From: Nitrospira sp.
GTDB lineage: Bacteria > Nitrospirota > Nitrospiria > Nitrospirales > Nitrospiraceae
DNA length: 64,000 bases
NCBI GenBank assembly: GCA_030692565.1
Contig: JAUYAO010000057.1
Location: 124,001-188,000, forward strand
Direction of reading: 5' to 3'
Shown piece by piece: positions 10,604 through 23,697 of this stretch; position 1 is the stretch's first letter; every line of letters starts with the position of its first letter. A program made the translations under genes and the position numbers. The notes below the pieces were generated by a model. The model was not told where the DNA came from and did no database searches. It saw only the letters and a program-made list of their open reading frames with translations.

Positions 10604-11632
10604 ATGAACACCGGACCCTTCTTGACTCTGCGATATATTCTGACGGTCTGCGCCCTGCTCGCGTCCTGCGCAAGCTTCGTTGACCAAGCCGATGCAGCCG
10701 GCCCGGTCGCCTACCGAGACTGTGCGTTGTCCTGGAATCCGAATACCGAATCCGATCTGGCCGGCTATCGGGTCTATATGGGACGAAGTCTCAACCAGCT
10801 CAACCGGATGAGAGACGTGGGTCTGCGCACCGCCTTTCGCTGTTCGGAAGGCGACGCAGCCGAAAACGGCCAGTGGTTCGGCACGGTCACGGCCTACGAT
10901 CACAGCGGGAACGAAAGCGCGGCGGCGCAGGCCGTCCCCTTTGAAATCGTCGGATGGCCGGACCCGGTACTGCCGGCAGAAATTCATGAACCGTCCTCGG
11001 CCCGCCTCGTGAACACGACACTGGGAGCGATCCTCGTCTGGAACGATGCTAATGTGCCGTCCGTCTCGCATCGGGTTGAAATATCCAGCTCGCTGGTTCC
11101 CGCCTGGACCACTGCCGTCGTGCAGCCTCCGGGAGTCCCCATGTTCTCCTATTTTCAGCTCGCCGGCGCCGAGTGGGTCTGCTACAGAGTCCGGGCGGAA
11201 CGAGGCGCGCTCGTCTCTCCCTGGGCGCAGGCCGGTGGACCAACCGATCGCCAATTCTGCACGCGCCCGGCGGAACTTCCGACGATTGCCCAGCCGATTC
11301 TCGCGCCGACGATCCTGTATGAGCCGGAATCGGTCCGCTTGGCCGCATCCCCTCGCGGCTTTACTCTCTCGTGGGGACGCCCCGGTGCCACGACCGGCCC
11401 GGCCTATCGGATTGAAGTCAGCGGGGCGCTCGATTATCGCTGGACGACGCTGGCAGTCCTTCCGCCTGGTACCAACGAGTTCCGCTACTATCGCGCCATC
11501 GACGCTGAGTGGGCCTGCGTCAGAATCAGGGCTGAAGTAGGGCGCGCGGTCTCTCTGTGGTCTGCGGCAGGAGGTCCGACCGATCGGCAATTCTGCTTCA
11601 AGCCCTCTTCTCCCGTCGCCAGCAACCCCTAA
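10604..11632 (+). CDS. Fn3-like repeat lipoprotein
   Basis: A 342-residue exported protein. The N-terminus MNTGPFLTLRYILTVCALLA is followed by a lipobox (LASC), so lipid anchoring is likely; cleavage after ADAA is the alternative. Three immunoglobulin-like (fibronectin III-type) units follow: one around CALSWNPNTESDLAGYRVY, and two homologous units that each end in GGPTDRQFC. The second and third share the pattern (Y/H)R(I/V)E(V/I)S...W(T)T...F.Y(Y/F)...AEW(A/V)C.R(I/V)RAE. The ATG at 10604 fits the signal peptide. Its TAA is followed at once by a dispersed element (11633-11790). A binding or scaffold role outside the inner membrane is likely; the ligand is unknown. Confidence 0.75.
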   Translation: MNTGPFLTLRYILTVCALLASCASFVDQADAAGPVAYRDCALSWNPNTESDLAGYRVYMGRSLNQLNRMRDVGLRTAFRCSEGDAAENGQWFGTVTAYDHSGNESAAAQAVPFEIVGWPDPVLPAEIHEPSSARLVNTTLGAILVWNDANVPSVSHRVEISSSLVPAWTTAVVQPPGVPMFSYFQLAGAEWVCYRVRAERGALVSPWAQAGGPTDRQFCTRPAELPTIAQPILAPTILYEPESVRLAASPRGFTLSWGRPGATTGPAYRIEVSGALDYRWTTLAVLPPGTNEFRYYRAIDAEWACVRIRAEVGRAVSLWSAAGGPTDRQFCFKPSSPVASNP

Positions 11633-11790
11633 CAGGCTGTTGACAATGTCCGCCAACGGCGTTCTCATCATCCGTGAAGCGTTCCTCGTGAAGCGTATCT
11701 CGCGAACGTGCCCTCGCCGATCCTATAACGAGAGACGAACGACGCTTCACGAACAACGGACAAAGCGGACGGCCTTTCTGAACAGCCTGC
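11633..11790 (+). repeat. Full-length dispersed element, copy A (MITE/REP-like)
   Basis: About 158 bases starting CAGGCTGTTGACAATG directly after the TAA of the lipoprotein gene and ending AACAGCCTGC, so the ends are inverted (CAGGCTGTT/AACAGCCTG). The whole length is a reverse-complement copy of the element at 16360-16532, with shared inner blocks (CGCCAACGGCGTTCTCATCA, GTGAAGCGTTCCTCGTGAAG, AACGAGAGACGAACGACGC). The inner part is self-complementary and would fold into a long hairpin. Confidence 0.75.
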
Positions 11791-11954
11791 GGGCCATACG
11801 GATCCTATCCGTGATCTTAGCCCAGACTTCCTCACCGGAGCCGTTATCGAGATTATCAACAGCCTGCTAATAACCTGCTCGGATCGACGTATCCGGAACC
11901 CACGTCCTGAACGGGCCGGGAGGAGCGCTTTACGCTCCTCCCGATAGTGAACAG

Positions 11955-12038
11955 CTTCACTTTTCTGCTCGCTTCACGTTTCACGCCTCACGTTTCACGG
12001 TGCACTGAACGCCGCTGGCGGACTTTTTCAGCATCCTG
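11955..12038 (-). repeat. Partial dispersed element, copy C
   Basis: Contains several TTCACG units and then the element end GAACGCCGCTGGCGGACTTT...AGCATCCTG, which abuts the TAG of the PEP-CTERM gene at 12039. It corresponds to one half of copies A and B. Confidence 0.65.
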
Positions 12039-12689
12039 CTAGGCCGCCAGCTCACGGCGCTTCTTCCAGGCCAGGCCTCCGACGCCCATCGCCCCGCTGG
12101 CAAACAACAGAAACGCGGCAGGAACCGGCACGGGCGCCGGGGTCAGGCCGACGGCCTTGCCCTGCAAGAAGAACGTGGCGGTCCGGTCCTGTCCTCCCTT
12201 GCGCGACCAGTCCTGCTCACCCTTGAACGCGCCGCGCTCAAAGAGATGATTCCAGGACAGGCTGAATTCCGAGGTCTCCGGGTTGAACAATCCCTTGGCA
12301 AGACCGCCGATATTCCAGGCGCGCACCTCGCTCCCGCGGCTCCAGCCGAAGAACAACGAGGAGAGATCGACGCTCAGCGACGACCCGTTGATCGTGGCGG
12401 AGGGCGCCGGAGCGCCGGTCATCCCGCTGGTGAAGAGTGAGTAGGTGGTGCATTGCTTCGTGATCGGATCCACGATCTCCGTCATCGACTGAAACGATCC
12501 CATCTTGATGACCCCGTCACGGTCGAACAACCGGTCGAGCGTGCGGCCATGTTCGCCGCTCCAATTCACCGCGCCCGAGGTGAATTCCAATTGGCCGATC
12601 GAGACCGCGTGGGCGCGGCCCTCCAGCCCCACGAGCGACAGCGCCGCCGTTGCTACCACCGCCACCGTCAATGCGAGTACACCTTTCAT
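12039..12689 (-). CDS. VPxPA/PEP-CTERM sorted exported protein
   Basis: A 216-residue exported protein. It has a signal peptide (MKGVLALTVAVVATAALSL, cleavage near AHA-VS) and a C-terminal exosortase sorting tail: PVPVPAA, a hydrophobic helix FLLFASGAMGVGGLAW and a basic end KKRRELAA. Exosortases cut at the VPxP motif and hand the protein on to the envelope or extracellular matrix. The ATG at 12689 is preceded by AAAGGAG. The middle of the protein is not recognised. The TAG lies directly against a dispersed repeat. It is the last of three such genes in the window, near an exopolysaccharide locus, which is the usual setting for PEP-CTERM proteins. Confidence 0.82.
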   Translation of the reverse strand: MKGVLALTVAVVATAALSLVGLEGRAHAVSIGQLEFTSGAVNWSGEHGRTLDRLFDRDGVIKMGSFQSMTEIVDPITKQCTTYSLFTSGMTGAPAPSATINGSSLSVDLSSLFFGWSRGSEVRAWNIGGLAKGLFNPETSEFSLSWNHLFERGAFKGEQDWSRKGGQDRTATFFLQGKAVGLTPAPVPVPAAFLLFASGAMGVGGLAWKKRRELAA

Positions 12690-12957
12690 CGCGAACTCCT
12701 TTGGTTGTGAGACGAACTCTATGAGTTCGCCCCGGTGTGAATGTGAAGATGAACCGATGCGCTTCGATGAATCCGTTCTACGTTGCATTTCGTAACAAGC
12801 CGCTGTGAGGAGCATCCCGGCAAACCCATTCTGGGAGCCATGGATAACATCCGTGTAAACTTTCGATCCTGGTTCGATTAATTTTGGATCAAGATTTAGG
12901 GGGCGAGCGAAGAGCCCCACCCTTATGAGGGAGCATGACTGATTGTCAACAAGCTCG

Positions 12958-12975
12958 CTGAGCAATTATGCTCAG
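12958..12975. other. Small perfect hairpin
   Basis: CTGAGCA and TGCTCAG are separated by ATTA. It is about 270 bases upstream of the PEP-CTERM start and could be an operator or part of a leader. Function unknown. Confidence 0.3.
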
Positions 12976-13163
12976 TGGGGACGGCTATCACTGCCGTCGT
13001 CCACCCAGCCGTCCGGTCAATATCAAGCACGAAGCGTTCCAACGAACCTTCCCACTGATCGCCTTCGCACCAATGACCGCGTCCCTCACGAGAGAGGCCG
13101 CGCGCAGGAACAGTCTACCGCTCAGGCTTACTGTATCGCGAGAGGAGAGGCAGAGGGTCGAGA

Positions 13164-13214
13164 GGCAGAAAAAGACACCGGCCCCCGCCACAGGATCACT
13201 GCGACGGGGGCCGG
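13164..13214 (-). terminator. Intrinsic terminator of the PEP-CTERM gene at 13244
   Basis: On the minus strand CCGGCCCCCG (rc of 13205-13214) and CGGGGGCCGG (rc of 13178-13187) form a perfect 10-bp GC stem with a 17-base loop, followed by TGTCTTTTTCTG. It begins about 30 bases after the TAG of the gene. Confidence 0.8.
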
Positions 13215-13243
13215 GACAAGCGGGCCGATCGTGGCCCAGGAGA

Positions 13244-13885
13244 CTAGAGGACTGACTGGGTCTTGCGGAATCCCAGAAGTCCCATCAGGCCGCTGCCGAA
13301 GAGCAGCAGCGCGCCAGGAAGCGGCACCGCCGCAAGCTGGGCAGACCCTTGGAGGGAAAACGTGCCGGACTGCAAGAACGGAATGTTGTATCCCGTAAAG
13401 GACTTGGTCCAGGACACGTTGAAGGCGTTCGTCAGTTCATTGAACGACCCGGCGGCGTTGCCGCCGACATTCAACGACGCCATCTGTGGATTCGTGTTAA
13501 CCCAAGACCAGCCGGTGCTGGTCACCCCGGCGAAGAGTGACTGGAGATCCGCCGTCATGACCGCCCCGGTCGTCTGTGCGGTCGGAGCGGGAAGATTGAG
13601 CGCTCCACCGTTGCTCGTGAAAAGGGAGAACGTGAGGTGGGAGAGTGTGATCGGAGTGAAGATGTTCGGCAGAGGCTGGTACTGCCCCATGACCAACTGC
13701 CCGTTCTGCGTGAAGGTGCCGGACACCGACCCCAACGAGCCGAAGTTCAGATTGACCGATCCGCCGGTGATGTCGAGCTGCGTCACCGACGCTGCCTGCG
13801 CGGGAACCGGCGCAACCGACAGCACCATCACAGCCAGGAGCGCGAATGCTCCTCCCCATGACATGAATCGTTGAAGGTGTCTCAT
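13244..13885 (-). CDS. VPxPA/PEP-CTERM sorted exported protein
   Basis: A 213-residue exported protein with signal peptide (MRHLQRFMSWGGAFALLAVM, cleavage near AQA-AS) and sorting tail VPLPGALLLFGSGLMGLLGF ending in RKTQSVL. The mature part is rich in Gly, Ser, Thr and Asn, as is common for matrix-associated PEP-CTERM proteins. I choose the ATG at 13885 because GGAAGG lies about nine bases upstream; an in-frame ATG at 13894 lies too close to that site. An intrinsic terminator follows the gene. Its mature sequence resembles the neighbour at 12039 in layout (TQLDITGGSVNLNFG against IGQLEFTSGAVNWSG). Confidence 0.82.
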   Translation of the reverse strand: MRHLQRFMSWGGAFALLAVMVLSVAPVPAQAASVTQLDITGGSVNLNFGSLGSVSGTFTQNGQLVMGQYQPLPNIFTPITLSHLTFSLFTSNGGALNLPAPTAQTTGAVMTADLQSLFAGVTSTGWSWVNTNPQMASLNVGGNAAGSFNELTNAFNVSWTKSFTGYNIPFLQSGTFSLQGSAQLAAVPLPGALLLFGSGLMGLLGFRKTQSVL

Positions 13886-13961
13886 CACTGCCATCCTTCC
13901 CAGGTGGCTGCCGGGAGTCTCGCTCCCGAACAGCCACACTGCGCGAGTATGAAGGGCTCGA

Positions 13962-15233
13962 TTACCGGCACTCGGGGTGAGCGCCTGCCTTCCAAATGAG
14001 CGGACCCTTGTCCACGTTCTTGGTCACGAACATTTCCTCATCGGACGCCCAGTAGGCGCCGGTGGGAATGATGCCGATGGTGGCTTGCGCCGAGGCATTA
14101 TCGACATAGGCTTGAGCCAACGCGTCGATGGCCGCGCCTTCGGAGGTCGTCCGGCGATTCAGGCGCCAGCCGGCCCAATAGGCATACTTGCCGCAACGGA
14201 GGTCGCGCTTTTCGTTGCCGACTAAAGCCGGATCATGGGCTAACCCGCCATCAAGACGGACGGTATAGCCCAATCCGGCGTTGGCGCCGCCCGGATTGAA
14301 GCTCACCACCGTATCTGAGTCCATATAGCCGATGGAACGGCGATTGCTTGCCAGACAGGTCAACACACCCGACGAACTCGAGCTGAATACCGACGTGGCA
14401 TTGGCCAAGAGGGTTTCGGTCGAATTGATCATGACGGCTTCATCGAATGTCGCCTTCGTGCCTGAGCCGGCACTGCGCATGCAGAGGGTGATCGGCGAGG
14501 TCGCTTCTAACACACCGGGAGCCGCATCGGTCACCGTGCCGAATCCCAGTTGCCTCCAGTCCGTGACTTGCTTCGAGAAAATTCGCTCGATCTCCAGACG
14601 GGACAGTCCGGCGATCGGTCCGCCCGGAGCGCCTGCCACATCCTTCACTACTCCCTTACCCACATAAATCGAGAATGGCACGATGGCCGCCACCACGCTA
14701 TTGAGGCTGCTGTCGTCCAGCGGGCTCACCGTCGTCCCCAATGGGCCGGCCTGGTGAAATGACGCGCCCTGCACATCGGAGGCGCCCAGATGAACCGGGA
14801 GGCTGATCGTATTGCCGTTGTTGCAACCGGTTGTATTGTTGTACTGCTTGCCGTCCGACGGTCTGGCTGCCACGTTCGGACCCGTGCAGCCGGTCGTCAG
14901 AGTATGGTCGAGGAACAGCATGTTGGAGGCCGGATTGGCAGCCGGCTGAAGCAGCTTGTTGACGCCGTCGCTGGACCCGGTCGCCGAATAGCGCATGATC
15001 ACGGGCAGGCCCCCGCGGTTGCAGGTCCAGGTGACCTTGTTGTTGTCCGCGCTCGAAAACCGGCTGGGAAGCGGCGCGGCGTCGCACAAATTCAACGGCA
15101 CGTCTGTCGCAAAGTTACGCCCGGCGGACGAGCCGCCGACATTGAGGACGGTCTGGGCCTCGGCGGTTCCGGCCAGGCCGGCCAGCGCCAGCGCGCCGGC
15201 GAGAACTGACACATATTGTGTCGTAAACTTCAT
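13962..15233 (-). CDS. PstS-like periplasmic binding protein
   Basis: A 423-residue exported protein with signal peptide (MKFTTQYVSVLAGALALAGL, cleavage near AEA-QT). It has type II periplasmic-binding features of the phosphate-binding PstS kind: the N-terminal strand VLNVGGSSAGRNF, an inner RYSATGSSDGVNKLL loop, the LSRLEIERIFSKQVTDWRQL helix, and RSAGSGTKATFDEAV, the anion-binding S-G-x-K segment. A GAAGGAG precedes the ATG. No pstCAB genes are nearby, so it may be a matrix or stand-alone binding protein rather than an ABC-transporter part. It lies between two PEP-CTERM genes in the same direction but has no sorting tail of its own. The ligand may be phosphate; this is inference. Confidence 0.75.
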   Translation of the reverse strand: MKFTTQYVSVLAGALALAGLAGTAEAQTVLNVGGSSAGRNFATDVPLNLCDAAPLPSRFSSADNNKVTWTCNRGGLPVIMRYSATGSSDGVNKLLQPAANPASNMLFLDHTLTTGCTGPNVAARPSDGKQYNNTTGCNNGNTISLPVHLGASDVQGASFHQAGPLGTTVSPLDDSSLNSVVAAIVPFSIYVGKGVVKDVAGAPGGPIAGLSRLEIERIFSKQVTDWRQLGFGTVTDAAPGVLEATSPITLCMRSAGSGTKATFDEAVMINSTETLLANATSVFSSSSSGVLTCLASNRRSIGYMDSDTVVSFNPGGANAGLGYTVRLDGGLAHDPALVGNEKRDLRCGKYAYWAGWRLNRRTTSEGAAIDALAQAYVDNASAQATIGIIPTGAYWASDEEMFVTKNVDKGPLIWKAGAHPECR

Positions 15234-15284
15234 GGGTGATCTCCTTCAAATAAAATAATGTACCTGTTGGTTTCGATCCGTACC

Positions 15285-16016
15285 CTATGCGGCCATCTGG
15301 GCAAACTTGCGCCGGGCGATTCCGACGAGCCCGATCAAGCCGCTGCCGAACAACACCACGCCGGCAGGAAGGGGAATGGGAGCCACGTTCGGACCGGGAT
15401 TGCCGATCGTCAACAATCCGCCAGCGGTCAACAAGACCCGGCCTACCTGGGTGAACGCGTTGGTTTCCACATCGCCACGCATAATATTGAGAACATTATC
15501 GAGGTTGCCCTGCATCGCCCGCTCCCAGGCTCCTTCAAACTGACCCGATCCGGAGGTATTGAGATTCTGCGAGAAGGACCGGTTCAAGGAATCGGACTTG
15601 CTGATCGTATCTCCGTCGAAGAGCGGCAGTGATGACCACACCGCCGACGCGATGAACTGTGTTACGAAATCCTTCGTCCCGGTCAGCTGCGCCGGAGTAA
15701 AAGCCGTGGCCGCATGGATCTGTCCGTTTGTCAGACTGGTATCCCAGCCGAACACGGTGTACTTCACCGGGTTCCCGCCGACTTGCGCCGCGGCCAATCC
15801 CGCGGAGGCATCAAAGTCGAACGTTGCGCCGGAGCCCAGTCTGGTGTTGTAATTTCCCAGATTATAGAGCGCCTCGGTGCTGTTCCCGTAGATCGCCAGC
15901 ACCAGGTCGCCGTCACCGAAGGTGAACGCCTGCGCCTGTCCGGCCATGCCGGACACCGCCGTGGCTACGGCTAACGCCGCCGCCATCATCATCCGCTTGA
16001 TCCCTTGAACTTTCAT
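15285..16016 (-). CDS. VPxPA/PEP-CTERM sorted exported protein
   Basis: A 243-residue exported protein. The signal peptide is MKVQGIKRMMMAAALAVATA with cleavage near AQA-FT, and the C-terminus is PIPLPAGVVLFGSGLIGLVG followed by IARRKFAQMAA, a good exosortase sorting tail. The start at 16016 has AAGGAGG upstream. The mature part begins FTFGDGDLVLAIYGNSTEAL, a segment I have no function for. The start of the PstS-like gene is 51 bases further on, so the two may be co-transcribed. Repeated 7-4-7 sites lie 150-200 bases upstream (16162-16223). Confidence 0.82.
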   Translation of the reverse strand: MKVQGIKRMMMAAALAVATAVSGMAGQAQAFTFGDGDLVLAIYGNSTEALYNLGNYNTRLGSGATFDFDASAGLAAAQVGGNPVKYTVFGWDTSLTNGQIHAATAFTPAQLTGTKDFVTQFIASAVWSSLPLFDGDTISKSDSLNRSFSQNLNTSGSGQFEGAWERAMQGNLDNVLNIMRGDVETNAFTQVGRVLLTAGGLLTIGNPGPNVAPIPLPAGVVLFGSGLIGLVGIARRKFAQMAA

Positions 16017-16161
16017 ACGACCCCTCCTTGATTGTAAAAATGACCTGTACTGCTGCCCTGCCTTCGATTCCTGAACTGTCCTCGCTCCCATCACCCCCTC
16101 TCTTTCCGAGAAGGGCGCGCAAATCTTTTGATAGATTCACACTGCCGTTCTCTCGTATCCG

Positions 16162-16223
16162 TGTTACAGCCACGTCACCCTCCCATTTGAGGGTCGTTAA
16201 CAGTGCGTTGCCGCAGTGTTGCG
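16162..16223. promoter_or_regulatory. Cluster of 7-4-7 direct repeats (PhoB/OmpR-like)
   Basis: TGTTACA-GCCA-CGTCACC (16162-16179) and, after a short gap, CGTTAAC-AGTG-CGTTGCC-GCAG-TGTTGCG (16195-16223) all keep 11-bp phasing. They lie upstream of the minus-strand PEP-CTERM gene and the PstS-like gene. A phosphate-type (PhoB) regulator would fit the PstS-like product but is not shown. Confidence 0.4.
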
Positions 16224-16359
16224 GATCGGGCGAAGCCCGGCGGGCCACTCGCTGCACGTGAGGAGTTGTACGCGGGAGAAGTTACCGCGCGATCAACGGA
16301 GCTTGTGGGAAGGGTAAATTGTAGATAAAGAACGGGAAACAAACGGCCGATGAACTACT

Positions 16360-16532
16360 GCAGGATGCTCCAGCAAGGCGGTCTGCTTCGTCCGTCGTTC
16401 GTGAAGCGTCGTTCGTCTCTCGTAGTAGGATCGGCGCAGGCACGCTCGCGAGATACGCTTCACGAGGAACGCTTCACGAGGAACGCTTCACGGATGATGA
16501 GAACGCCGCTGGCGGGCTGTTTCAGCATCCTG
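16360..16532 (-). repeat. Full-length dispersed element, copy B (MITE/REP-like)
   Basis: Begins GCAGGATGCTCC and ends AGCATCCTGC, so the ends are inverted. It is the reverse-complement counterpart of copy A at 11633-11790 along its whole length, with one extra GAGGAACGCTTCAC unit. The minus-strand end CAGGATGCTGAAACAGCC directly follows the tonB TAG. Inner TTCACG units would pair with each other in a long hairpin. Confidence 0.75.
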
Positions 16533-17171
16533 CTATGTCGGCGGGAAGAATTTTACGACGATCGTATGATCCATCCCCGGCGGAGGCGGACGCACCTCCG
16601 TCACTTTGGCCAGCGCATCGAGCGCGGATTGATCGAAGAGGAGACTGCCGGACGAGTTGACGAGGCGGAACTGCAACACACGACCCTGTTCATCGATCAC
16701 CAACTCGCAGAGCACGGCATATTCCAGATCGTCCGGGAGCGACGCCGGGGCCTGATACTTCGACTGAATCGACGCGGTCAAGATATCCGTGTAGCCGGCG
16801 AATCGTCCCCGGCCTTTCCCAATGGCAAACGGATCGGTGCTCACCGGCGGCGGCCCCGGCGCATCGGACGCCTTGGGTGGCGGCGGCGCTTCTGCCTGCT
16901 GAGGGGGAGGTGGAGGCGGCGCCTCTTGCGGCTTCGGCTCCGGCTTGGGCGCCTCCGGTTCCGGTTCTGGTTCCGGTTCCTTTTCAGGCGGAGGGGGCGG
17001 CTCCTCTTTCTTGAAGGCATTCAGCTTGTAGACCTTGATGAGGTCCTGCCCCCATTGGGTTTGCGCCACCCAATAGAGTCCGCCGCCGATGCCGACATGC
17101 ACCAGCCCGACGATCAACAGCGTCGTGCCGAGCTTGCTCTTCTTTTTTTCAAATCCCTTATAGCCGGCCAT
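16533..17171 (-). CDS. tonB: TonB energy transducer
   Basis: A 212-residue TonB. The short cytoplasmic start MAGYKGFEKKKSKLG leads into one membrane helix (about 16-37), then a long Pro/Glu/Lys periplasmic spacer (about 53-110) and a C-terminal TonB domain (about 125-212) with YAVLCELVIDEQGRVLQFRL and SALDALAKV. TonB carries proton-motive energy from ExbB/ExbD to outer-membrane receptors. The His typical of the E. coli transmembrane helix is present (VGLVHVGIG). It is in the same direction as exbB and exbD but separated from exbD by a 178-base repeat block. Its TAG abuts a dispersed element. Confidence 0.92.
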   Translation of the reverse strand: MAGYKGFEKKKSKLGTTLLIVGLVHVGIGGGLYWVAQTQWGQDLIKVYKLNAFKKEEPPPPPEKEPEPEPEPEAPKPEPKPQEAPPPPPPQQAEAPPPPKASDAPGPPPVSTDPFAIGKGRGRFAGYTDILTASIQSKYQAPASLPDDLEYAVLCELVIDEQGRVLQFRLVNSSGSLLFDQSALDALAKVTEVRPPPPGMDHTIVVKFFPPT

Positions 17172-17349
17172 CTCTTCAACTCGTGAAACGTGAAACGTCG
17201 TGCGTGAAGCGCAAGGGGGAAGGCGTCCAACTCGTGAACGGTGAAGCGTGAAACGTGAAGCGTCCCTCGTGAAGCGTCCGAATCCGCAATGAGATACGCT
17301 TCACGTCTTCTTCTGGCGCTTCACGCTTCACGAGGGACGCTTCACGGTC
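17172..17349. repeat. TTCACG inverted-repeat block between exbD and tonB
   Basis: The gap is filled with GTGAA(A/G)CGT units on the left and their complement (ACG(C/T)TTCACG) on the right. A perfect 23-base inverted repeat (17255-17277 with 17323-17345) would give a stable hairpin with a 45-base loop in the mRNA. The motif GTCTTCTTCTGGCG in this block recurs in the next block upstream. Confidence 0.8.
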
Positions 17350-17766
17350 TTAAGGTTCATTGAATGGTTTTGTGGCAATCGCCAGATCCTCGACCGGAAT
17401 CCGCTGGAGGATGTCGAGCACCGCGACCACGTGCTTGTATTCCACGCCGGAATCGCCGCGGAGTACGAGCGGCAACTTGCCGCCCTTGGCCGCTTTCAGA
17501 TCGCGAATCAACTTTTCCAGTTCCGTAATCTTGACCTTCTCTTCGTCCATGTAAATATCGCCGTTCTTCTTCACGGAGAGGGTCGGCGTCGTGGTTTCCA
17601 TTTCCGTTTCGTGCGGAGTGGACTCCGGCAACTTGAGCTCGATCCCCTGCACCGCCGCTGTCGTCGTGATGATGAAAATCACGAGCAGCACCCAGGCCAG
17701 GTCGAGCAACGGGGTCATGTTGATATCGGCGACCGCGCCGTGCGATTTGCGGGAAAAACGTCTCAT
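17350..17766 (-). CDS. exbD: ExbD/TolR-family biopolymer transport protein
   Basis: A 138-residue ExbD with the family layout: short basic N-terminus, SHGAVADINMTPLLDLAWV with the conserved membrane Asp (D22, equal to the proton-path Asp of ExbD), one membrane helix, and a periplasmic domain with LKLPES, VKKNGDIYMDEEKV and LRGDSGVEYKHVVAVLD. It forms the proton channel with ExbB and energises TonB. Repeat blocks flank it on both sides. The start is the ATG at 17766. Confidence 0.93.
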   Translation of the reverse strand: MRRFSRKSHGAVADINMTPLLDLAWVLLVIFIITTTAAVQGIELKLPESTPHETEMETTTPTLSVKKNGDIYMDEEKVKITELEKLIRDLKAAKGGKLPLVLRGDSGVEYKHVVAVLDILQRIPVEDLAIATKPFNEP

Positions 17767-17952
17767 CCCTGCCCTCCGTATCTCGTCTCACGTGAAGCGT
17801 GAAGCGTTATGTCGTGAATTTCGTATCGTGTGAAGCGTGAAACGTCATGCGCGAAGCGCCCGAATCCGAAACGAGATACGCTTCACGTTTCACGAACAAC
17901 GCTTCACGTCTTCTTCTGGCGTTTCACGCTTCACGAGCCACGCTTCACGTCC
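17767..17952. repeat. TTCACG inverted-repeat block between the four-helix-bundle gene and exbD
   Basis: About 170 bases of GTGAAGCGTGAAACGT units and their complements. A stretch of nearly 60 bases (17834-17890) is almost identical to 18391-18447, and GTCTTCTTCTGGCG is shared with the block at 17172-17349. A TGAAGCGTGAAACG / CGTTTCACGCTTCA pair can form a hairpin. Confidence 0.8.
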
Positions 17953-18306
17953 TTAGAGCTTCTTGACCAGGTTCCGCAGCATCCTCGTTTCATGATCGAG
18001 CTTCTCAATGATAAGATCCCGGATATCCCGTTGGACAAATCCAAGGTCCGACGATATCTCCACCTGCGTTTCCAGTTCGGCACAGGAACCCAATGCAATG
18101 AAAAGAAATTGCCGATATTCCTTGCTGTGGAACCGATTGAACCCTTCCGCCACATTCGATGGAATCGAAACCGATGCTCTTCGCATTTGCGCGGCTAAGC
18201 CGTACGCCTCGACCCTGGGGTATGCCGCGGTCGCTCGATAGACATCCAGCACGATCTCTTTCCCCATTTTCCATACATCCAAATCTCGAAAGTTTCGAAT
18301 CTTCAT
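17953..18306 (-). CDS. Four-helix-bundle protein (S23 / rRNA intervening-sequence family)
   Basis: A 117-residue helical protein with the TIGR02436-type signature: FRDLDVWKMGKEIVLDVYRA, AYGLAAQMRRASVSIPSNVA, EGFNRFHSKEYRQFLFIALG and a final LIIEKLDHETRMLRNLVKKL. Members are found in 23S rRNA intervening sequences and the fold is shared with Avd of diversity-generating retroelements. Their molecular role is mostly unknown; a nucleic-acid-binding role is assumed. The start MKIRNFRDL is preceded by GGAGGG. It lies inside the exbB-exbD-tonB run, flanked on both sides by TTCACG hairpin blocks, which suggests that gene and repeats came in together. No reverse transcriptase is in the window. Confidence 0.85.
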   Translation of the reverse strand: MKIRNFRDLDVWKMGKEIVLDVYRATAAYPRVEAYGLAAQMRRASVSIPSNVAEGFNRFHSKEYRQFLFIALGSCAELETQVEISSDLGFVQRDIRDLIIEKLDHETRMLRNLVKKL

Positions 18307-18575
18307 GGGCGCCCTCCTGTGCTGCAAACGCTACCATGCTATGCGGCATCTGAGGAACACCCTGTCAATTCATGAGGTGTGAAACATATCTCGTGAAGCG
18401 TGAAACGTCATGCGTGAAGCGTCCGATCCGAATGCGATACGCTTCACGCTTCACGTCCTTTCCCACACTTCACGACCAACGCTTCACGTGCCTTCTCTGG
18501 CGCTTCACGTTTCACGAACGACGCTTCACGCCCTTTTCCCCGCGCTTCACGCTTCCCGCACAACGCTTCACGTCC
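18307..18575. repeat. TTCACG inverted-repeat block between exbB and the four-helix-bundle gene
   Basis: From about 18375 to 18570 the gap is dominated by GTGAAGCGT/ACGCTTCAC units in opposite orientations, the longest of the three blocks in this operon. It shares near-identical segments with the block at 17767-17952. Only the first 70 bases are non-repetitive. Confidence 0.8.
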
Positions 18576-19358
18576 TCAATGACCCGTCGCCGCTGAGGAA
18601 GGCTCGGCCTCCTGGCGGTGTCCGCCCGGGCGGTAGTCTTCGGGATCTTCCGATTCGGCCGCGGCGCCTTTTTTCTCCTGGAGATAGTCCGTCATGAAGA
18701 CGGTTTCGAGATGGGCCGCAAAATTATCGAGTTCCATGGTCAGCGTTTTTGTCTTGGTCACGAGGAAGTTGTAGCAAAAGAGGGACGGGATCGCGACCAT
18801 GAGTCCCGCGACCGTCGCGATGAGCGCCGAGGCGACGCCCGGAGCCATAGTCGCGAGGGTGGCTGACTGCGCCTTGCCGATGCCGGCGAACGTGTCCATG
18901 ACGCCCCAGACGGTCCCGAGCAGTCCGATGAACGGCCCGCCGCTGATGGCCGTCGCCAGCACGATCATGCCGGACTCCAGGCTGACCGCCGCCTCACCGA
19001 GCACGCGCTCCAACGCAATCCGCACGGCGCTCATGCCGTGATGCGGAATCTTTTCCCCCTCATACTTTTCCTGCTGCACCTTGAGTTCTTCGCAGCCGCC
19101 ATAATAGACGTCGTACATCGGCGAGCCCTGTAGCTGCTTGATCGGGCCTTTGCTGAACACGACCAGGGGACCTTTGGACTTCGAGTAGTAACCGAGGAAG
19201 AGCCCGTTCCGATTTTTCGCTTTGCTCAACTGCCGGAACTTGTTGATGATGACCGTCCAGCTGACCAGCGAGAAAAACAGCAGTACGGAGATCGTGATCT
19301 TTCCTTCGAGCGTCGCATGACTCAGCGCGAACGCCACGCCCCCTGAACTTGTTTCCAT
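18576..19358 (-). CDS. exbB: ExbB/TolQ-family proton channel protein
   Basis: A 260-residue MotA/TolQ/ExbB protein with three membrane segments: ITISVLLFFSLVSWTVIINK, a helix near GGPFIGLLGTVWGVMDTF that carries the conserved G-L-x-G-T-V-x-G-V motif, and GVASALIATVAGLMVAIPSL. It builds the proton channel with ExbD. Its ATG lies 18 bases after the tpsA stop with AAAGGA upstream, so it is clearly in the tpsB-tpsA operon. The C-terminal 40 residues are hydrophilic and Glu-rich. This close coupling of a two-partner secretion locus with a Ton motor is unusual. Confidence 0.93.
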   Translation of the reverse strand: METSSGGVAFALSHATLEGKITISVLLFFSLVSWTVIINKFRQLSKAKNRNGLFLGYYSKSKGPLVVFSKGPIKQLQGSPMYDVYYGGCEELKVQQEKYEGEKIPHHGMSAVRIALERVLGEAAVSLESGMIVLATAISGGPFIGLLGTVWGVMDTFAGIGKAQSATLATMAPGVASALIATVAGLMVAIPSLFCYNFLVTKTKTLTMELDNFAAHLETVFMTDYLQEKKGAAAESEDPEDYRPGGHRQEAEPSSAATGH

Positions 19359-19376
19359 CTGCGTCGTCCTTTCCGG

Positions 19377-22300
19377 TTAGCTGCCTGCTTGCGGCTTCAC
19401 ATCGACTTGAATGACCACGCCGCGTTTCACGCGGATGGATTTGGCCAGTTGCGTGGCGGTCGACTTGCCGTCCGATTTTTTCGCTTCTTTGGTTTCTCTC
19501 GATTGGCCCGACGATTCCACCGCGCTTTCCTGCACGGCATCCGACTGTTTCACACCCGTCGCGGTCGCCGCCGCCGTCGTGGAGGCCGCGCCGGCCGTTC
19601 CGCCTCCGCCTAACGCGACCGGAGGCGCCGCGGCTCCGGCCGGAGCCAGCCCGCCGATGGCCGGAGGCGACGGCAGGATCGGGGGGCGCGGAAACTCGAC
19701 AATACCCTGAACTTCACCGCCCTGGAAATCGACGATCGGCGCGTTCAGCGTCACACGGCGCCCGCGGATACCGGCCGGCGGAATGATGATGCTGCCCCGC
19801 TCAGCCGTCAGGGTGATGTCGCCGAGCTTCGACCGCTCGATAAACGGCCTGAGCACCGTTTCATTGAAAATCGGCAGGCGCTCCGCGCGCAACCGGTTGG
19901 CCTGTTCATTGATCGCCGTGACGTCGCGGCCGAAGAATCCTTCCCGATTCGCCAGGTCCACCAGCGCATTGATCTCCGGATCGTTGAAGGTCGGGAAGAC
20001 CAGCGGCTGCGGATCTCCGGGATGGAAGGTAAAGATGCCGCTGCCGGGCACTTCAAAGACCTTTTCCATGAGGATAGGGGTGCCGTCCTGGTTGAATTTC
20101 GGATTGCCCAGGCCGTCCAACTCGGGAACCAGCACTTTAAACAGCGCGCGCTCGTCCTTGCTCCCGCTCCCGGCATTAATCTTACCGGCCACCGAGGTGA
20201 GCCGGATATCGCCGCCGCCCAACGTCGCGATGCGCGACTTGTTCACATCGATATCGCCCTTAGCCCTGATGAGAATCGCCGCCGGATCTTTCACGAGCTG
20301 TACGGTGACGGTTCCATCCGGATTCACGATCGGCGCCTTTGCCATCTGCCCGACCGATCCGCCTTCTATGACTTGAATGCCCGTCGACGCCCCGCTTTCA
20401 CCCGCCGATCGGGAGCTGTTTTCGCCGATGTTCACCCGGCCGCCGGCGGCTGGAAGATTCATTCCCCCGCGCACGGAGTCCGGAAACTGGAGGGGATAGA
20501 GGACGCTGTTGTCGTAGCCCACGATGTAGGGCTTGGATTCGTCATACCCGTGAATGGAAATCCCGGCCCCGTTCCGGCTGACGATGGTCGACGTCACCAT
20601 ATCGAGCCCGTTGCCGACCGCGATGTCGAGCAGGCCGCCGAGATCGCCCGCCTTGCTGCGATCCATGCTGATCCCCTGGCCGTCGGCGAGATCCAGCGTT
20701 CCTTTCGCGATCACCCGCGCAGTCCCCGGACCGGAGAATGCGAGAATGCCTTCGCCGGCCTCTCCCTTGCCCAGATTAATGTCCTGAGCCTTGACAGTCG
20801 CGGCCACCTTGGGAGACGTCACCGTCACAGTGGTGTCTCTCACCACCACGTTGACGAGATTGGCCGGATCGACGGCTTCCTGTTTGTTCCAGGGCCGAAT
20901 CTCGACCTGGCCGCTCGTCGGATTGACCGCCCGGATCAACACCACGTCGGCATCGGTGATCGGCCGCAACCGGTTCGTGTTTGGATCCAGAAACAAGGGC
21001 ACGTGTTCGGTGAGCGTCTGGGTCTGGGTGCCAAGATCGGGCAGATAGATCCTCGCGCTGACCTGTTCGATCCGGTTGCCCGCTTCAACCAGAACTTCCT
21101 TGCGGAACGGCCGGCTCACCAGATCGAGAAACAACTTACTGATGTTGCCCAGCTCGGCAATGACACTCACCGGCGCAAGCGAGGCCGGGTTCTCGGTCGC
21201 TACAGGGCGGTTGTTACTGACAAGCGATCCGACTGCTGCGAGGTCCGCGTTCCCCGCCAGCGCCGCAGGATCGACTTGGAGCAATTTGACGGTCGGCGGA
21301 TTCCCCTCCCCGTCCCGAAATGCATAAGCAGGAAATTCGCTCGGAGGAGCCTGATCGAAGAGAGGCCGGGGAGGCAGGGTGTCGCTGCCGGGCTTATTCG
21401 CGAGGAAGGGCCATAAATCGGGCCGCTGGAGAAGCGTCCGCTGATCGACGGCGACCCACTGCCCTCCCGCCAGCCCCCCGTAGCCCACATAGAGCCAGAT
21501 GAAATTCTCATCGGCTCCCCGCACTAACTTTGGAACGCCTTGGATATCCTGCTTCGCAAAGAACTTCACGGATCCCGTCGGGGAAGGGAGAAACGTCAGA
21601 TTCGAGCGGATCTGGATGGTGCCCTTCTCGGCCCTCGCCTCGAAGGACGCAGGCAGCAGGGCGCTCAGCACATCGACCAGCAGGGATTGACGCCCGGCAT
21701 CGCGATTATTGGTATTGATGATAATATGCCCGTCACGAGACACGATCGTCGCTTTGTTGCGCTCCAATCCGGCGGCAAATGCCGGCTCCCGTGGCACCCC
21801 TGTCGCCAGATCGATTCCGCCGACGAGTCCCGCATCACGGATCCGCTGAAGATACACATTGCCTCCGGCGGTGACGGTGAGATTGCCGTTGGAGAGCGCA
21901 AAGTCGGCATACTGTCTGGACGATTCCGCGATCGTCGTGGTCTGCGGCAGGCCGTTCGATCCCAGCGGCAGGTTAGTCTCGCCGATGACCCCTCCGACCG
22001 TGACGGTATGTTGCGGCAGCGGCCCGGCGCTGTCGAGATTGCGCAAGACGAATCCCGGCCCGCTCTTTACCCCGTTGGGCGACCCGCCCAGAAAATTCCG
22101 GGCCACGTCGAGGACTAACTTTCCCGCCCCTTCGATACTGATGCCCTGCACACTGAAAAGTCCCAGCGGGCCTCCGGATTCATCGACCGCCGTCCCGGCG
22201 ATGAGGTCCTGGCCGGTCTTGATCGACACTCCGCCTCCGCCGCTCGCCTGCACGACTGAGAGCGCGCCGGTGGCCGGATCGTCCAAGCGGACATCCCCCG

Positions 22301-23681
22301 TCTTCGCATGGAGCGTGACGCTGCCGCCGTGCGCCGTCGCCAGCGTGGATCCGGCAAACCCGGTGAACAGAATGTGGCGCTCGGCGGTGCCCGCGATATT
22401 CCAGAGCGCGGGCAGCCCGAGGGGAAAGGGATTATTGAACAAGATGAGGTTGTCGAAGAGCAGATCGCGGCCCGCCTCGAATCGAATCGTGCCTCCGCCT
22501 GCCGGAGGTTGCACCAGACTCAAGTCGAACAGGCCGGTGATGCGGAGGTCTTCTCCGAGCAGCGAGGTGAAGAGTATGTCCTGGAAATTGGTGGCGGCAA
22601 ATCCCGTGAGGTCGACTTCCACCGGATCGATGAGGAGCCGCCCGCCCCGGTAGCCCGCTGCCGCGTTTGCCACAAAGCGGCCACCCAGAAATACGTTCTT
22701 GCCACTCAATTCAACCGAACCTCCATGGCCGCCCTTTGCGCCGCCCGAGACATCCAGCGTGGCGCCCTTCTCGAATCTCGCCGTACCCTTGGTCTTATCG
22801 GCAATTGCGATAATCGTTCCGCCATTAGCGGGTCCGTCCCCACTGCCTTTCGCAATCGTCTGACTCCCGGACTTCAGCGTGAGGATCTCGCTCGCAAAGA
22901 GTTCGATTTTGCCGTTCCGTTCCCGCACGCTGTTTGCTTGGACGAGACCCTCTTGATTCACGACCCGGCCCGCTAACGTGATCTGGCCGCCGTCCGCAAT
23001 CAGGTCCTTCAAGTTCACGGCGTGGCCGATGGGCGCGGAAATTTCCGCGAGGAATCCCTGCCCGTCAGGCCGATTCGACAGATAGGCCTTGGCCCCCGCT
23101 GCCAGCACGATCGAACCGCCCGGCGTGGTAATGATGCCGCTGTTCTCGACGTTCGGCGCGAGCAGATACACCCCGTCATGGGCTCCGTGAATACGGCCCA
23201 TGTTTTTCACAAGTCCTTCGATCCCGGCGCCCTCGAACGAATAGAAACCCCGCATGAAATTTTCATTGGTCAGGTTGAGCGAGGACGCGATGAGCCCTCC
23301 GACATTCACCTGGGCATTCGGTCCGAAGACGACGCCGTTCGGATTCAGCAGGATGACGGTGCCGTTGGCGTTCAGGCTGCCGAAAATCTGGCTGGGGTTG
23401 TGATCGAAGATGCGGTTCAACGCAATGGCATTGACGTTCGGCTGGATGAACCGGGTCACTTCGTTCGGCGCAATGTTGAATTGCTGCCAGTTGATGATGG
23501 CCCGCTGGGAAGCCTGGGCGATCGTCACCTGCGCGGTGCTGAGGCCCGACACCGCCGCTTCTCCGGCCACGACAGCCGGCCCGGTGGGATTGGCGAGCAG
23601 CACGGGCACGGCGAGCATCTGAGCCGTATAGGCGATCACGACCGCCAGGGCCGTGAGCGATGACTGGTTCCTGGTCTTCAT
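19377..23681 (-). CDS. TpsA exoprotein with filamentous-haemagglutinin TPS domain
   Basis: A 1,434-residue secreted protein. The signal region (about 1-30) is followed by a TPS/haemagglutinin activity domain (about 40-270) with INWQQFNIAPNEVTRFIQP and LLNPNGVVFGPNAQVNVGGL (NPNG at 113-116), the parts recognised by the TpsB POTRA domains. The central part is a beta-helix of repeated G-rich strands. Near the C-terminus are a Pro/Ala linker (PPILPSPPAIGG), a Ser/Thr/Lys-rich stretch and a final IRVKRGVVIQVDVKPQAGS. The ATG at 23681 is 16 bases after the tpsB stop; a GTG at 23693 is the alternative. It is exported by the upstream TpsB, and likely works as an adhesin or matrix protein; a toxin role is not indicated. 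Confidence 0.88.
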   Translation of the reverse strand: MKTRNQSSLTALAVVIAYTAQMLAVPVLLANPTGPAVVAGEAAVSGLSTAQVTIAQASQRAIINWQQFNIAPNEVTRFIQPNVNAIALNRIFDHNPSQIFGSLNANGTVILLNPNGVVFGPNAQVNVGGLIASSLNLTNENFMRGFYSFEGAGIEGLVKNMGRIHGAHDGVYLLAPNVENSGIITTPGGSIVLAAGAKAYLSNRPDGQGFLAEISAPIGHAVNLKDLIADGGQITLAGRVVNQEGLVQANSVRERNGKIELFASEILTLKSGSQTIAKGSGDGPANGGTIIAIADKTKGTARFEKGATLDVSGGAKGGHGGSVELSGKNVFLGGRFVANAAAGYRGGRLLIDPVEVDLTGFAATNFQDILFTSLLGEDLRITGLFDLSLVQPPAGGGTIRFEAGRDLLFDNLILFNNPFPLGLPALWNIAGTAERHILFTGFAGSTLATAHGGSVTLHAKTGDVRLDDPATGALSVVQASGGGGVSIKTGQDLIAGTAVDESGGPLGLFSVQGISIEGAGKLVLDVARNFLGGSPNGVKSGPGFVLRNLDSAGPLPQHTVTVGGVIGETNLPLGSNGLPQTTTIAESSRQYADFALSNGNLTVTAGGNVYLQRIRDAGLVGGIDLATGVPREPAFAAGLERNKATIVSRDGHIIINTNNRDAGRQSLLVDVLSALLPASFEARAEKGTIQIRSNLTFLPSPTGSVKFFAKQDIQGVPKLVRGADENFIWLYVGYGGLAGGQWVAVDQRTLLQRPDLWPFLANKPGSDTLPPRPLFDQAPPSEFPAYAFRDGEGNPPTVKLLQVDPAALAGNADLAAVGSLVSNNRPVATENPASLAPVSVIAELGNISKLFLDLVSRPFRKEVLVEAGNRIEQVSARIYLPDLGTQTQTLTEHVPLFLDPNTNRLRPITDADVVLIRAVNPTSGQVEIRPWNKQEAVDPANLVNVVVRDTTVTVTSPKVAATVKAQDINLGKGEAGEGILAFSGPGTARVIAKGTLDLADGQGISMDRSKAGDLGGLLDIAVGNGLDMVTSTIVSRNGAGISIHGYDESKPYIVGYDNSVLYPLQFPDSVRGGMNLPAAGGRVNIGENSSRSAGESGASTGIQVIEGGSVGQMAKAPIVNPDGTVTVQLVKDPAAILIRAKGDIDVNKSRIATLGGGDIRLTSVAGKINAGSGSKDERALFKVLVPELDGLGNPKFNQDGTPILMEKVFEVPGSGIFTFHPGDPQPLVFPTFNDPEINALVDLANREGFFGRDVTAINEQANRLRAERLPIFNETVLRPFIERSKLGDITLTAERGSIIIPPAGIRGRRVTLNAPIVDFQGGEVQGIVEFPRPPILPSPPAIGGLAPAGAAAPPVALGGGGTAGAASTTAAATATGVKQSDAVQESAVESSGQSRETKEAKKSDGKSTATQLAKSIRVKRGVVIQVDVKPQAGS

Positions 23682-23697
23682 GTACAGCCTCACAATC

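Follow-up and report, generated by a model that had tools for sequence, protein, structure and literature searches.

A four-helix-bundle (S23/IVP) gene between mirrored heptamer-repeat arms: an apparently mobile insert in an exbB-exbD-tonB operon

The TTCACG repeats between the exbB, exbD and tonB genes of a Nitrospira sp. genome are the arms of a small, apparently mobile insert built around a four-helix-bundle (S23/IVP) gene. The same plan, one gene between mirrored and usually 7-nt repeats whose letters differ from site to site, recurs across the bacteria and includes a copy inside a 23S ribosomal RNA gene. Most of 95 IVP genes in the genus and 79 from many phyla lie between inverted arrays of a degenerate unit, with a best self-match lag of 7 in 66–72% of flanks, and about 80% of upstream arms match their own downstream arm above the 95th percentile of swapped partners. 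We read the insert, with fair confidence, as a mobile element resembling the intervening sequences (IVSs) of rRNA, accompanied by remnants; its mobility is inferred from comparison rather than from observed movement.

Repeat blocks and genes of the exbB-exbD-tonB run

The analysed window is a 64,000-nt stretch of GenBank assembly GCA_030692565.1 (contig JAUYAO010000057.1, positions 124,001 to 188,000, forward strand). GTGAARCGT occurs 37 times in the window against a mean of 0.82 (largest 3) in 100 dinucleotide shuffles, ruling out chance, and 27 of the 37 copies lie in 17183–18571. An earlier sequence-only reading had described GTGAA(A/G)CGT units and their complement in all three gaps of the run, with long near-identical segments shared between blocks and a perfect 23-bp inverted repeat at 17255–17277 and 17323–17345. 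This observation holds: all three gaps carry the blocks, and the repeat coordinates are right to one base, the perfect repeat being 24 nt (17254–17277 with 17323–17346).

The host genes all lie on the minus strand. Profile searches identify an exbB/tolQ-type gene (18576–19358; PF01618, E 2e-29), an exbD/tolR-type gene (17350–17766; PF02472, E 5e-27) and a tonB-type gene (16533–17171; TonB C-terminus, PF13103, E 9e-10, and PF03544). Between exbB and exbD lies the IVP gene (17953–18306, minus strand), which matches PF05635 at E 1.5e-32 (112.4 bits against a cut-off of 33.8, positions 1–105 of 106) and TIGR02436 (106.8 bits against 24), and is related to the solved structure of XCC0516 (PDB 2gsc, E 6e-23). 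Its likely start is ATG 18306 behind AGGAGG, giving 117 aa, although the list of open reading frames starts it at TTG 18327. The sequence-only reading took this gene as one more gene of the operon; it is the centre of the element. Directly upstream of exbB is a 1438-aa protein with a TPS/filamentous haemagglutinin N-terminal secretion domain (19377–23693, minus strand). Two small secreted-looking proteins (13244–13939 and 15285–16094, both minus strand) carry a C-terminal PLPGALLLFGSGLMGLLGFRK-type tail that appears PEP-CTERM-like by eye.

The upstream arm block fills the gap between the exbB stop and the IVP start (18307–18575), with GTGAARC heptamers and their complement at 18379–18571. The downstream arm block lies between the IVP stop and the exbD start (17767–17952; units 17792–17948) and is near-identical in stretches to the upstream block. 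A solo hairpin of the same unit occupies the exbD-tonB gap (17172–17349), holds the perfect inverted repeat, and shares long segments with the downstream block. The units also occur outside this run, at 11674–11750, 11976–11998 and 16401–16491, and at further places in the 4.17-Mb genome. These include a solo hairpin at 11674–11750, a solo half with CGYTTCAC units only (11969–11998), and a solo hairpin downstream of tonB (16391–16491) nested in another inverted repeat (CAGGATGCT...AGCATCCTG). A second repeat (CAGGATGCTGAAAAAGTCCGCC...TTTTTGAGCATCCTG), seen at 11634–11800, 12005–12045 and 16350–16535, surrounds two of the solo GTGAAGC hairpins. In two close relatives (genomes G026 and G033) it fills both the exbB-exbD and exbD-tonB gaps right after the stop codons, as if two repeat families compete for, or nest in, the same spots. 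A search of 11500–19500 returned no Rfam match.

In the predicted transcript the IVP element folds with its arms paired across the ORF (−320 against −277 kcal/mol; z −6.7, 20 shuffles), and the exbD-tonB block is a strong predicted hairpin (z −5.3). The upstream arm is poor in C and the downstream arm poor in G. The sequence-only reading proposed that the hairpins set the relative amounts of ExbB, ExbD and TonB through RNA processing or stability, or that they are recombination-prone. Its interpretation is partly supported. Hairpin formation is supported as a prediction, recombination is supported by a remnant in a sister genome (see below), and the inverted layout, whose absence from relatives had been named beforehand as counting against the idea, is kept in relatives. 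In contrast, a role in setting protein ratios is not supported. G026 and G033, with 98–100% identical proteins, carry an unrelated repeat in both gaps, and nine other relatives have a short exbB-exbD gap without such a hairpin. Although the predicted sense-RNA hairpins are strong and GTGAARC hairpins occur in the exbD-tonB gap of many relatives, the same units lie next to unrelated genes and the architecture follows the IVP gene rather than exbB-exbD-tonB. We therefore consider REP/BIME-like operon regulation very unlikely, though a local side effect on RNA is still possible.

Heptamer arms around IVP genes across bacteria

The genome encodes six PF05635 genes (seven matches, with one gene broken in two). 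Each has its own short unit on one side and the mirror image on the other: CGTGAAR at exbB-exbD, and GTGACGN, GGCTGAA, a 9-nt CTGGTCTNT, TTTCANA and TTGACGN elsewhere. In 95 IVP loci of the genus the best self-match lag is 7 in 125 of 190 flanks (9 in 32, 8 in 13), against 22 of 184 in stretches ∼0.5 kb away. Each upstream arm matches the reverse complement of its own downstream arm (mean score 17.2) far better than that of another locus (9.6), and 79% exceed the 95th percentile of swapped pairs. The arms adjoin start and stop codons. Around 39 control genes of the window only 10% of flanks have best lag 7 and none has matching arms. Neighbour genes in the cross-phylum loci described next are higher (33% and 14%), perhaps because long arms or solo copies reach them. 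About 20% of IVP loci have no recognisable arms.

To determine how widely this plan occurs we scanned the GTDB collection, which gave 583 relatives. Of the best 80, 79 could be scored; these come from Bacteroidota, Pseudomonadota, Acidobacteriota, Clostridia, Spirochaetota, Patescibacteria, Chloroflexota, Planctomycetota, Omnitrophota and others, and show the same pattern (lag 7 in 113 of 158 flanks; 19.5 against 9.6; 80% above the 95th percentile). Because these loci were chosen by similarity, we also examined 30 IVP loci that a family search returned from ten of these genomes. Of these, 77% pass, mostly with a unit of their own. On cyanobacterial plasmids, heptamer-armed IVP genes lie between nrdB and nrdA (Nostoc edaphicum) and between cas6 and cas4 (Pseudanabaena galeata). 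On the Azospirillum plasmid AZO_p2 the IVP lies inside a bacterial LSU (23S) rRNA gene and has the arms GAGGACG-GATGACA / TCCGTCC-TCTGTCT, tying a classical IVS to the same plan. A blastn search for further IVPs inside 23S rRNA among the fetched loci found only one locus (L200).

The protein is under purifying selection (median dN/dS 0.12 over 82 non-independent pairs), so it matters to the element or to the host. This, and the position of the arms next to start and stop codons, would also fit a useful host protein whose arms are its own autoregulatory RNA, spread by transfer but not self-moving. We consider this unlikely, as there are 0–10 copies per genome and none in 17 of 59 same-genus genomes, insertions occur inside 23S rRNA, between nrdB and nrdA and between cas6 and cas4, and empty sites are clean.

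Empty sites, shared units and possible remnants

For IVP pairs at sites without homologous flanking genes, arm similarity rises with IVP identity, from about 8 below 35% to 10 at 58–64%, 14 at 64–70%, 20 at 70–80% and 24 above 80% (2 pairs), while antisense controls stay at 8–11. IVP and unit travel together and drift together. Conversely, nine pairs with homologous flanks have similar arms (score 16–17) but very different IVP proteins (20–35% identity), as if the gene had been swapped inside kept arms or two elements had used one site, although some may only share common flanking gene families.

Close relatives have empty sites. An element designated C58 (438 nt) is replaced by about 36 nt in the sister genome G030, G026 and G033, and a second, C44 (598 nt), by about 19 nt in G030, G033 and a further genome, G064. 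G064 branches outside the window's clade on the exbB-exbD tree, so the C44 case looks like a gain. Junctions at two sites show no clear target-site duplication, and the element encodes no recombinase. At C44 the 9-nt unit runs in frame into the first codons of a gene that we read as NusG-like, by inspection only, so that the repeat is translated (NQTDQTNQTDQ); a 9-nt period may be kept there because it preserves the frame.

At exbB-exbD the IVP is present in the window genome and in genomes G003 and G052, on three branches of the tree. These could represent one old insertion with several losses. However, the window and G003 IVPs are 88% identical in DNA against 79% for exbB, which favours separate arrival or transfer over plain descent, though repeated loss cannot be excluded. 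G030 lacks the IVP but keeps a single 183-nt hairpin whose left end aligns with the start of the upstream block and whose right end matches the downstream block, as expected if recombination between the blocks removed the gene; the reverse order, insertion into a hairpin, cannot be excluded at this site.

GTGAARC repeats are commoner where this IVP type occurs. GTGAARCGTGAARCG has a median of 34 copies in 11 genomes with this IVP type and 4 in 68 others (p about 1e-5, not corrected for phylogeny), with no control hits for the reversed pattern. Genomes without IVP still hold a few GTGAARC repeats (median 3). These copies, the many solo hairpins, and the different repeats that occupy the same exbB-exbD gap in different species could suggest a passive hot spot, in which heptamer hairpins arise and spread by themselves (slippage, template switching, REP-like movement) and IVP genes merely land in them. 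This also appears very unlikely, because each IVP type has its own unit at unrelated sites, solo repeats scale with the cognate IVP, and Y1 transposase (PF01797) was not found in the repeat- and IVP-rich genomes G005 and G052. Neither Y1 transposase nor reverse transcriptase is required: 25 of 42 IVP-bearing genomes in the genus have no RVT_1 match (rho 0.02).

A proposed IVS-like element and its relation to known systems

In the simplest model, the blocks are arms of a small insertion element whose only gene is the IVP, and the arms are inverted arrays of a degenerate 7-nt unit (8 or 9 nt at some loci). The element would form a long hairpin with a gene in its loop, the layout known from 23S rRNA IVSs, and persist where it is tolerated: in operon gaps, next to stop codons, or in an rRNA helix. 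Copies without the ORF would be remnants left when recombination between the arm blocks deletes the IVP, or non-autonomous copies. Comparison establishes the architecture and its spread, the match of each upstream arm to its own downstream arm, the units shared by related IVPs at unrelated sites, presence or absence at defined sites, and purifying selection on the protein. We infer, from sequence alone, that the IVP acts on its own arm RNA or DNA and so promotes copying of the element with host enzymes; binding and the copying step are likewise inferred, and any excision by RNase III would be by analogy with rRNA IVSs only.

More tentatively, and on balance less likely than not, IVP genes across bacteria may define one class of minimal mobile element, in which the four-helix-bundle protein reads its own 7-nt arm unit and drives copying with no transposase or reverse transcriptase of its own. 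This class would include rRNA IVSs and be the source of intergenic heptamer arrays such as cyanobacterial STRR and Xanthomonas GGGAATC. The finding would tie together what S23/IVP genes do outside rRNA, where rRNA IVSs come from, and why many bacterial genomes hold intergenic heptamer arrays. It predicts that each IVP recognises its own unit, asks how an element with no visible transposase moves, and warns against reading such operon hairpins as host regulation.

Several components are already described. IVP ORFs are known from 16S and 23S insertions of CPR bacteria (PMC11270868). We found no paper linking IVP genes with heptamer arrays, or stating that IVP genes generally lie between inverted heptamer arrays with a unit per locus, although the partial library searched makes this weak evidence of absence. 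Intergenic tandem 7-nt units, partly as inverted pairs, include GGGAATC of Xanthomonas and GGGGA(C/T)T of Nostoc (PMC4692102), TAACTGA of Beggiatoaceae and cyanobacteria (PMC4679880), and cyanobacterial STRR. Those papers name no S23/IVP gene, and derivation of these arrays from IVP elements is only a prediction.

The accessory protein Avd of DGRs is a homologous four-helix bundle, and its resemblance to PF05635 has been noted (PMC10053308). However, the element has no template/variable repeats, and reverse transcriptase does not follow IVP in the genus. REP/REPIN-RAYT systems and MITEs are likewise short palindromic intergenic repeats, some non-autonomous. Here, in contrast, arrays of a locus-specific 7-nt unit replace a fixed palindrome, Y1 transposase is not needed, and a protein gene lies in the loop. 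The closest system is the 23S rRNA IVS with an S23p/IVP ORF (Coxiella and others; PMC4990558), which has the same protein family, an ORF between terminal inverted repeats that form a stem (predicted here), and a long-suspected origin as a former mobile element. The insert described here differs in its heptamer-array arms with solo copies elsewhere, and lies between exbB and exbD in a protein operon rather than inside an rRNA gene, the location that defines IVSs proper; it works like an IVS, and the Azospirillum 23S copy has the same kind of heptamer arms.
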